Translations under genes and position numbers: made by a program
Assembly (NCBI GenBank): GCA_001942185.1
Contig: MKJV01000044.1
Span: forward strand, 1-64,000
Reading direction: 5' to 3'
Source of the DNA: Pseudonocardia sp. CNS-004
GTDB taxonomy: Bacteria; Actinomycetota; Actinomycetes; Mycobacteriales; Pseudonocardiaceae
DNA: 64,000 nt
Notes under the pieces: model-generated
Seen by the model: only the letters and a program-made list of their open reading frames with translations
Told to the model about the DNA's origin: nothing
Database searches by the model: none
In this document: positions 24,046-25,696 of the stretch, one piece after another
Layout: each line of letters opens with the position of its first letter
Position numbering within the stretch: the first letter of the stretch is position 1

Positions 24046-24816
24046 TCAGGCCTTCGGGCCGACCGCCGCATCCAGCATGGCCACGGCCTCCCGGCGGGCC
24101 ACCGAGATCGTGTCGGGGCGGGGAAGCGGTGGGCGATGCCGAGCCGATCAGGCGATGCGCTGCAGAGCCCGAGGATGTCGGTGGACTTGTTGGTGAAGAA
24201 CCAGCGCGGTACTCGTAACGCCTGGTGACCCCGGCCACGGTACGACGGGTCCAGTCGGTCATCCGGCAGCCGTCGGAGTGGAACAGGCCGCGGAGGAACG
24301 CTCCCGTGTGCTCGGCGACGAGCTCCTCCTGCCACGGCTCGAGCACGATCGGGCGAGTGTGCTTCATGCCCGGGCCGTGCTGGGGGAAGAGCCAGGGCCA
24401 ATGCTTCCAGCGTGCGGTCACGTACGTGCAGCCCTGTCGGCGCAGCCGGCTCACCGTGTGGTGTGGCCGGAGCGACCGGATGGCCTCCGTGCATTGGGCC
24501 ATGATCGCCGGCCATGCATCGGGACATGCGATGCGCAGGGACCACACGTTCCCGCGCCCCCGGCTCAGCGTGCCATCACCGGGGTACTGCACGAGGAGGT
24601 AGGAGTATGCCGGCCCAGGGGTGGGGAGCATCGTCGCCGGGCCGCAGCGCGGGCAGTCGAACGGATCGAACCCGGCGCGCTCCGTCGCGCCGGCTGCGCA
24701 GGGGCCGACCGGCTGATCCCGGTGGACCTGCTGACAGCCGAGATGCTCTGACCGGAGCGGATGGCCGCCACCGTGGCCCGGCGCACCTCAGCGTCGTACG
24801 CGGGATCACTCTTGCG
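24046..24816 (-). CDS. HTH / LAGLIDADG-like DNA-binding protein (several frameshifts)
   Basis: Reassembled over four frames, the protein has a homeodomain-like HTH (KSDPAYDAEVRRATVAA then SISAVSRSTGIS), a zinc-ribbon-like FDCPRCG, and a LAGLIDADG-type core with a degenerate first motif (AYSYLLVQYPGDG) and a second motif AFLRGLFHSDG. CLFPQHGPGMKHTRPI lies between them; FFTNKSTDILGL and a C-terminus ISVARREAV...VGPKA follow. Missing bases are needed near 24690, 24217 and 24135. No ATG, GTG or TTG lies between the tRNA 3' end and the conserved N-terminus, so the start is unclear. Homologues in actinobacteria are often called transcriptional regulators; the fold suggests a domesticated homing endonuclease. 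It lies 27 bp downstream of the tRNA on the same strand. Confidence 0.65.
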
Positions 24817-24843
24817 GACGGCGCCGACGATTCCGTGACCTTC

Positions 24844-24919
24844 TGGTGCCCCCGGTGCGATTCGAACGCACACTGAACGGGACTTGAATCCGTTGCCTCT
24901 GCCGTTGGGCTACGGGGGC
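24844..24919 (-). tRNA. Class-I tRNA with CAA (leucine) anticodon
   Basis: A 76-nt cloverleaf with encoded CCA. Acceptor arms are GCCCCCG / CGGGGGC, the T arm is GTGCG-TTCGAAT-CGCAC, the D loop contains GG, and the discriminator is A. The anticodon loop TTCAAGT reads CAA, which decodes the leucine codon TTG. The variable region is only five bases (TCAGT), whereas normal bacterial tRNA-Leu is class II with a long variable arm. The top of the anticodon stem has an A-C mismatch (positions 31-39). The identity as leucine is therefore formal, from the anticodon only. Confidence 0.88.
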
Positions 24920-25063: not shown

Positions 25064-25696
25064 GTGAGCCAGCAGGTGTCCGAGCAGCAGTCCGCGGACG
25101 AGGCCCGACCGGCCGCCGGTCTGCGGGTGCTCGTGGTGGAGGACGAGGCACTGATCCGTCTCGACCTCACCGAGATGCTGACCGAGGAAGGCTACGTCAT
25201 CGCGGGCGAGGCCGGTGACGGAGAACAGGCGGTGGAGCTCGCGCGCGAGCTCAAGCCCGACCTGGTGATCATGGACGTGAAGATGCCGAAGGTGGACGGC
25301 ATCGCCGCAGCGGGCTCGATCGTGGAGGAGAAGATCGCCCCGGTCGTCATGCTCACGGCTTTCAGCCAGCGCGACCTCATCGAGCAGGCCCGCGACGCGG
25401 GTGCGATGGCGTACCTGGTGAAGCCGTTCGCCCGGCACGAGCTGGTGCCGGCCATCGAGCTCGCGGTGTCGCGGTTCGCGGAGAAGCGGGCGCTCGAGGA
25501 CGAGGTGGCCACGCTCACCGACCGGCTCGAGACGCGCAAGACCGTCGACCGCGCCAAGGGCCTGCTCATGACGCGCCAGAACATGAGCGAGCCCGACGCG
25601 TTCCGCTGGATCCAGCGCACCGCGATGGACCGCAGGACCACGATGAAGGCGGTCGCCGAGGCCGTCGTCGACGGGCTCGCCGCACCGAAGTCCTGA
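25064..25696 (+). CDS. pdtaR: ANTAR-domain response regulator, PdtaR type
   Basis: A 210-residue two-component regulator that binds RNA rather than DNA. The receiver domain (about 20-135) has the acidic pair VVEDEAL, phospho-acceptor Asp71 in LVIMDVKMP and Lys in YLVKPFARHEL. The ANTAR domain (about 145-205) has LETRKTVDRAKGLLMTRQNM and AFRWIQRTAMDRRTTM. In mycobacteria PdtaR acts with the kinase PdtaS by antitermination; no kinase gene is in this window. GTG 25064 follows AAGGAGAGC. It sits directly upstream of the liv operon and could control it, although I see no clear ANTAR double hairpin. Confidence 0.93.
   Translation: MSQQVSEQQSADEARPAAGLRVLVVEDEALIRLDLTEMLTEEGYVIAGEAGDGEQAVELARELKPDLVIMDVKMPKVDGIAAAGSIVEEKIAPVVMLTAFSQRDLIEQARDAGAMAYLVKPFARHELVPAIELAVSRFAEKRALEDEVATLTDRLETRKTVDRAKGLLMTRQNMSEPDAFRWIQRTAMDRRTTMKAVAEAVVDGLAAPKS

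Follow-up and report, generated by a model that had tools for sequence, protein, structure and literature searches.

A LAGLIDADG endonuclease gene and the leucine tRNA gene beside it: a probable homing cassette in actinobacteria and viruses

In the 64,000-nucleotide stretch of Pseudonocardia sp. CNS-004 DNA that was analyzed here (contig MKJV01000044.1, positions 1 to 64,000; the window), a class-I tRNA-Leu(CAA) gene, i.e., one with a short variable arm, is followed by the remains of a gene for a LAGLIDADG protein. This raises the question of whether the tRNA has left ordinary decoding and what such a gene is doing beside it. The features concerned are collected in Table 1. The complete 76-nt cloverleaf of the original prediction, with anticodon CAA, five variable-loop bases, and an A-C mismatch in the anticodon stem, was confirmed by ARAGORN, Rfam, and the sequence itself; the Rfam tRNA score was 49.2 bits (24847-24919) against a cutoff of 29, and the mismatch was read as A31-C39. 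Among 25 aligned sequences of the tRNA family, pairing is kept through two-sided changes at 16 of the 21 base pairs, so that the cloverleaf is conserved beyond chance, and pair 15-48 is A-U in some members and G-C in others. Within the window, Rfam found the tRNA as its sole match and the tRNA gene is uninterrupted by any intron, on which grounds we rejected an intron-encoded homing endonuclease for the window. The genome yields 45 tRNA matches, of which the seven long ones represent two Leu (GAG and CAG), four Ser, and one Tyr tRNA, although, at a completeness rating of 83%, the absence of further long tRNAs is weak evidence.

Table 1. Features at the tRNA-Leu(CAA) locus of the window
Feature	Coordinates	Strand	Basis
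Class-I tRNA-Leu(CAA), 76 nt with CCA	24844..24919	minus	ARAGORN, Rfam, sequence, family covariation
Decayed HTH plus double-LAGLIDADG endonuclease pseudogene	24046..24801	minus	Three-frame translations, intact relative L002
Largest open pseudogene piece, 161 codons, with zinc-ribbon-like motif and both LAGLIDADG motifs	24224..24706	minus	Search query
pdtaR-like response regulator, divergent from tRNA	25064..25696	plus	ORF; same neighbor in L053

Downstream of the tRNA and on the same strand, the HTH, a CPRC-like motif, and two LAGLIDADG-type motifs are present as had been described, but they are spread over different frames and the gene is broken. The HTH lies in the first frame, the LAGLIDADG stretch (24706-24224) in the second, and later pieces in the third and then the first again, with several frameshifts in all and a stop codon at 24048-24046. 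The reported lack of an obvious start codon was borne out, the window having GCG where its closest relative, L002, starts with GTG; the gap to the tRNA, given as 27 bp, is wider than that, with the HTH starting about 42 nt past the CCA. The largest open piece is 81% identical to its counterpart in genome G259, with which the 3.5-kb region around the pseudogene shares 82.6% nucleotide identity. The window gene is a frameshifted remnant and would represent a decayed stage of the cassette proposed below. The gene on the other side of the tRNA is named pdtaR-like here; judging by resemblance, we take its product to be of the ANTAR type.

With the 161-residue piece as the query, matches were found in 15 of 297 Pseudonocardiaceae genomes. 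The fifteenth (L015; E value of 2e-4 over 52 residues), where there is no tRNA, was taken as a chance match; at all 14 true matches, tRNA-Leu(CAA) adjoins the gene. A scan of 84,980 species (one genome each) with nine intact relatives gave at least 571 coding places, and at the best 80 of these at least 571 loci, tRNA-Leu(CAA) was present within about 230 bp upstream in 80 out of 80, the tRNAs of the same best 80 being class I in 77 cases and class II in 3. Likewise, all 59 gene-positive genomes among 81 sampled Streptomyces have tRNA-Leu(CAA) beside the gene. The adjacency on which the original prediction turned is therefore consistent across genomes, and it extends to ten Pseudonocardiaceae loci and Kribbella catacumbae, where gene and tRNA diverge but remain a pair.

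As for the wider locus, the order in S. noursei is pdtaR, tRNA, endonuclease, and pyruvate kinase, and in 176 of 197 loci (with some genomes counted twice), pdtaR and the tRNA are arranged divergently. In the genus of the window, the orientation of the tRNA relative to pdtaR in L004, L012, and L153 is opposite to that in L001, L002, and L160, which points to at least one inversion of the tRNA. In one of these genomes (G155, locus L153), the endonuclease gene is reduced to its C-terminal part, and two Streptomyces genomes (G342 and G354; L237 and L227) contain two full-length endonuclease genes in tandem behind one tRNA-Leu(CAA). We rejected an element of plasmids or isolate phages, since a tblastn search with the L005 protein, from Pseudonocardiaceae, found no match among 72,556 records of plasmids and 50,697 of phages, the viral relative L259 found none in the same collections, and the viral relative L265 gave, against the phage records, only a weak partial match, which was confined to a single uncultured phage, cr116_1 (two records).

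The form of the tRNA at this locus varies. In the 81 Streptomyces genomes, the class-I model matched in 56 and a class-II Leu(CAA) pattern occurred, once each, in 24 others, with zero overlap; the one genome left, G338, has neither form and also no pdtaR match. A second, weaker class-I match was noted in G316 (C1:4014654-4014728, 78.4 bits). Class-II Leu(CAA) lies immediately 5' of the gene in all 19 gene-bearing Streptomyces without class I and is also found beside the gene in K. catacumbae, which has no class-I match; in two Pseudonocardia (one of them a metagenome assembly), the remaining class-I matches are the UAA and UAG tRNAs. One and the same Streptomyces gene for Leu(CAA) thus occurs in either a class-I or a class-II form, the tRNA having been replaced rather than added. 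While the absence of class II from 41 gene-less loci suggested that it occurs only together with the gene, those loci had been picked by the class-I model, and five gene-less Streptomyces, reached via a search for the pdtaR neighbor, do have class II, which led us to discard that idea. With G338 left out, class II is present in 19 of 59 gene-bearing and 5 of 21 gene-less Streptomyces, so that, inside this genus, tRNA class is not associated with the presence of the gene.

The replaced tracts can be delimited by comparing loci with similar surroundings. An upstream-flank identity of at least 92.5% was shared by 36 pairs of gene-bearing loci; tRNA identity was at most 85% in 20 of these, above 97% in 11, and between these values in 5. 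In 11 non-overlapping pairs of the kind with at most 85% tRNA identity, sequence identity drops 60 to 120 bp before the tRNA and returns 220 to 940 bp past the tRNA start; the replaced tracts end within the endonuclease gene, and what has been replaced in every one of the 11 is the tRNA together with the DNA immediately before it. Loci L088 and L194, for example, have flanks that are 97.1% identical, endonuclease proteins of only 54% identity, and tRNAs of different classes. The corresponding values for L026 and L246 are 98.5% (flank), 95.7% (endonuclease), and 77% (tRNA), from which it follows that the tRNA can change along with just the start of the endonuclease gene. Across gene-bearing loci, median tRNA identity was 0.77 even where pdtaR was at least 95% identical (43 pairs), as against 0.96 at a pdtaR identity of 80 to 90% (51 pairs) for 18 gene-less Pseudonocardiaceae loci, a set chosen by tRNA score and therefore favoring conservation; 13 gene-less Streptomyces loci fell in between. 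As a control, tRNA-Leu(CAG) of the 81 Streptomyces was compared with the S. noursei query and was at least 98% identical in 55 and 84 to 87% identical in 24, with 2 unlisted for best match, making this control only partly clean. Identity of Leu(CAA) to that of S. noursei was at least 98% in 9 of 74 loci and below 70% in 19, by an identity measure that differs from that of the CAG control and with gene-less loci included.

On FastTree trees of 116 loci, tRNA class required 7 changes on the endonuclease tree, where 200 shuffles gave a minimum of 15 and a mean of 17.9, versus 18 changes on the tree of the two flanks, where the shuffle mean was 17.8. When tRNAs were instead divided by type (ten groups), 34 changes were counted on the endonuclease tree and 48 on that of the flanks, the latter value being slightly under the shuffle mean of 51.1 (minimum, 46); with the upstream flank only (117 loci), the numbers were 7 for the endonuclease and 17 for the flank. 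Mantel tests agreed with this picture (tRNA-endonuclease, r = 0.32, P = 0.005; tRNA-flank, r = -0.01, P = 0.58). Hence, tRNA class follows the endonuclease tree independently of the flanks, whose own mutual correlation is only moderate (0.41).

We consider it probable that the pair is a homing cassette, in which a free-standing endonuclease directed at tRNA-Leu travels with a tRNA-Leu that resists it. The HTH-LAGLIDADG enzyme would cut tRNA-Leu genes, which in actinobacteria means the gene for Leu(CAA), at a putative target within the tRNA gene, while the cassette would carry an allele left uncut by its own enzyme, and repair of the break off the cassette would copy both the tRNA and the endonuclease into the recipient. 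The needed tRNA would in this way be replaced and not lost, with the carried tRNA acting as the rescue, and at a later stage the endonuclease gene would decay and vanish as the tRNA allele stays. That the Leu(CAA) tRNA is needed is likely, given its single occurrence and the late role of bldA, which encodes the tRNA-Leu(UAA), in Streptomyces. In favor of a homing cassette are the observed adjacency, the exchange of tRNA alleles at one site and the shape of the tracts, the joint inheritance of tRNA class and endonuclease, purifying selection, the fold, and the decay of the gene, from which cleavage and resistance are inferred. A number of findings sit less easily with it. One endonuclease does not always mean one tRNA (L026 and L246), and the gene at L008 adjoins a tRNA with the common anticodon arm, for which reason we also dropped a simple anticodon-arm signature of gene-bearing tRNAs. 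Moreover, no tRNA fragments flank the actinobacterial cassettes at any of 145 same-strand loci (a T-arm-like site occurs in 8 of 985 control windows), and the lack of a link between class and gene presence, the nonuniform CAG control, and the only moderate correlation between the flanks count on the same side.

Viral contigs (viral origin being the collection's own classification) bear on the pairing from outside the bacterial chromosome. The subfamily is present on nine of them and tRNA-Leu lies beside the gene in 9 of 9, three of which, having nearly the same endonuclease, are not independent; on 14 contigs with more distant LAGLIDADG genes, no tRNA was found in the stretch covered, which spans about 2.5 kb on each side of the gene in all but L292. 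Single-protein scans for further viral cassettes returned only the queries themselves. In L278, the gene lies among five tRNA-Leu genes, its end overlapping the start of a class-I Leu(CAA), and in L260 (CAA) and L265 (UAA), the endonuclease frame encloses a complete tRNA in the segment that separates the HTH from the LAGLIDADG domain. Both of the latter cassettes are preceded by the 5' portion of a second tRNA-Leu, which resembles class II. In L260, the corresponding 3' portion lies beyond the stop codon and shares its acceptor stem with the inner tRNA; no such 3' portion was found in L265. To judge by this arrangement, L260 and L265 look like cassettes that inserted into a tRNA-Leu gene and brought a replacement tRNA with them. 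Another of the viral contigs with a tRNA-Leu and an endonuclease gene, L259, also carries a tmRNA gene (105-469).

The protein itself, as judged from its intact relatives, consists of an HTH followed by two LAGLIDADG repeats (mean pLDDT of 92.4 for a model from 36 sequences) in the repeat fold alpha-beta-beta-alpha-beta-beta-alpha. The best PDB structures in a Foldseek search are homing endonucleases, including I-Tsp061I, I-AniI, and I-DmoI, with the bI3 maturase also among the fold matches. Pfam recognizes LAGLIDADG_3 in 34 and HTH_23 in 29 of the 36 members; a GIY-YIG family is absent from the 12 Pfam families that match these members, and we therefore rejected membership of the SegB (GIY-YIG) family. 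Nothing informative over the full length was obtained with NCBIfam, PHROGs, or PADLOC. The GDG (75) and SDG (176) motifs are invariant in the 36 aligned proteins, and of 129 full-length copies, 120 have the strict first-motif pattern and 128 the SDG. Motifs, fold, and Pfam thus agree with the earlier assignment of the gene to the homing-endonuclease type. With a median dN/dS of 0.16 and a maximum of 0.22 over 13 non-overlapping pairs, the intact relatives are under purifying selection.

It is unlikely that the gene is a mere passenger at a locus that recombines frequently for another cause, such as selective pressure that phages, anticodon nucleases, or toxins directed at tRNAs exert on the tRNA. 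Such a locus would account for the same tRNA forms, including class II, in gene-less Streptomyces and for the change of tRNA between L026 and L246 while the endonuclease stayed nearly constant; however, tRNA class tracks the endonuclease tree and not the flanks, the tRNA varies little at the gene-less Pseudonocardiaceae loci (the set chosen by tRNA score), the same subfamily adjoins tRNA-Leu in viral contigs, and the protein is kept by purifying selection. We regard as very unlikely an action at the RNA level, with the protein attacking foreign tRNA-Leu(CAA) itself and the linked tRNA serving as an insensitive antidote. This would likewise couple the form of the tRNA to that of the protein and favor tRNA replacement, but the fold and catalytic motifs are those of a DNA endonuclease, and tracts centered on the tRNA are what break repair would be expected to leave.

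Of the 59 Streptomyces copies, 44 are full length and open, 2 contain one stop, and 13 are split or truncated; no match was found in the other 22 of the 81 genomes, and four gene-less loci (L207, L210, L212, and L213) keep a short C-terminal piece. Patchy presence and decay at one locus are what one would expect from the life cycle of homing endonuclease genes, and at this constant site they are found together with catalytic motifs, the repeat fold, and conversion tracts incongruent with the flanks, as in a free-standing LAGLIDADG homing endonuclease. The same observations make it highly improbable that the protein is a domesticated DNA- or tRNA-binding regulator of the neighboring tRNA gene. 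Its adjacency is constant, it has an N-terminal HTH, and maturase-type LAGLIDADG proteins, of which bI3 is among the fold matches, do bind RNA, but the catalytic aspartates are retained, the orientation relative to the tRNA flips, and the tRNA persists where the gene is missing (22 of 81 Streptomyces), damaged (15 of 81), or, as in Pseudonocardiaceae, confined to 14 of 297 genomes. Domestication, which had been among the roles proposed for the protein, is unlikely on this account, with 15 of 59 Streptomyces copies damaged, and nothing was found pointing to another of them, processing of the tRNA. A regulator of the WhiA type was set aside as well: WhiA has its LAGLIDADG domain before the HTH and has lost the catalytic residues, whereas the present proteins have the HTH in front and retain the catalytic motifs.

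The tRNA, finally, turned out to be less exceptional than its short arm suggests. At an E value of 1e-6, the class-I model matched in 297 of 297 Pseudonocardiaceae genomes, a figure that does not equal the count of CAA genes, since the model also matches class-I Leu tRNAs with UAA and UAG anticodons; the 27 loci topping the class-I list (L139 to L165), three of them gene-bearing, are all Leu(CAA). The UAA and UAG leucine tRNAs are class I in several Pseudonocardiaceae, as is the UAG tRNA in S. noursei, and those with CAG and GAG are class II (loci L123, L124, L125, L130, L131, L137, and L138 taken together); Actinopolymorpha alba (L178) has an 82-nt tRNA-Leu(UAA) with an intermediate variable region. 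As a single CAA gene with an intact cloverleaf at a conserved site, the short-armed tRNA-Leu(CAA) is the ordinary Leu(CAA) tRNA of the conserved actinobacterial locus pdtaR/tRNA/pyk. A non-canonical or regulatory tRNA outside ordinary leucine decoding, which the original prediction had read from the class-I form and which the short variable arm and the mismatch in the window copy might suggest, can practically be dismissed in view of these matches, of a covarying cloverleaf in which pair 15-48 alternates, and of the alternation of classes in Streptomyces, where the short-armed form is the sole Leu(CAA) tRNA found in 56 of 81 genomes and a long-armed form takes its place in 24.

In open-licence articles, judged by titles and starts of abstracts, we found no description of bacterial LAGLIDADG genes that occur as a pair with tRNA-Leu. 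A gene of T4 invites comparison, segB, for which a 2008 paper reportedly announces in its title the preferred inheritance of a tRNA region. SegB is the nearest precedent, being encoded by a free-standing endonuclease gene among phage tRNA genes (PMC2988022, PMC13096335) and having a tRNA intergenic region listed as its target (PMC2988022). It differs in belonging to the GIY-YIG and not the LAGLIDADG proteins, and the passages on it describe no pairing with one isoacceptor, in-frame tRNA, or chromosomal home (PMC2988022). A mycobacterial tRNA cluster offers another likeness, with a short-loop tRNA-Leu, in this case tRNA-Leu(UAG), and homing endonuclease genes, those in such clusters being of the HNH family (PMC6582537); there, however, the tRNAs are extra copies, and pairing with Leu(CAA) or replacement of a standard gene is not described in the passages on these clusters (PMC6582537). 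I-Tsp061I, I-DmoI, and I-AniI share the fold and catalytic motifs with the present family but are intron encoded, in contrast to a free-standing protein with an N-terminal HTH and a complete tRNA gene as its partner. A comparison of another kind is with Cleave-and-Rescue (ClvR), which is engineered, eukaryotic, and does not require homing. In a single cassette, it joins a nuclease to a version of a needed gene that resists cutting (PMC7951863). For the tRNA pair, nuclease-tRNA linkage and tRNA replacement are observed, with putative cleavage, resistance, and essentiality, and the proposed rescue would differ from ClvR in operating in bacteria and viruses and in taking over the very site of the resident gene.

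Few parts of a genome would be expected to be as conserved as a one-copy tRNA gene, but the one described here is swapped faster than its neighbors, and across the divide between class I and class II. We tentatively put forward, as quite possible, that a homing endonuclease family specialized on leucine tRNA genes acts as a natural home-and-rescue drive, destroying the resident tRNA-Leu and supplying a resistant one (in viruses even in frame), and that the class-I leucine tRNAs of actinobacteria may stem from recurrent sweeps of these cassettes. If true, this would be a natural counterpart of engineered cleave-and-rescue drives, would provide a large ready-made set of pairs of nuclease and resistant target, and would offer an explanation of why actinobacteria have leucine tRNAs without the long variable arm.
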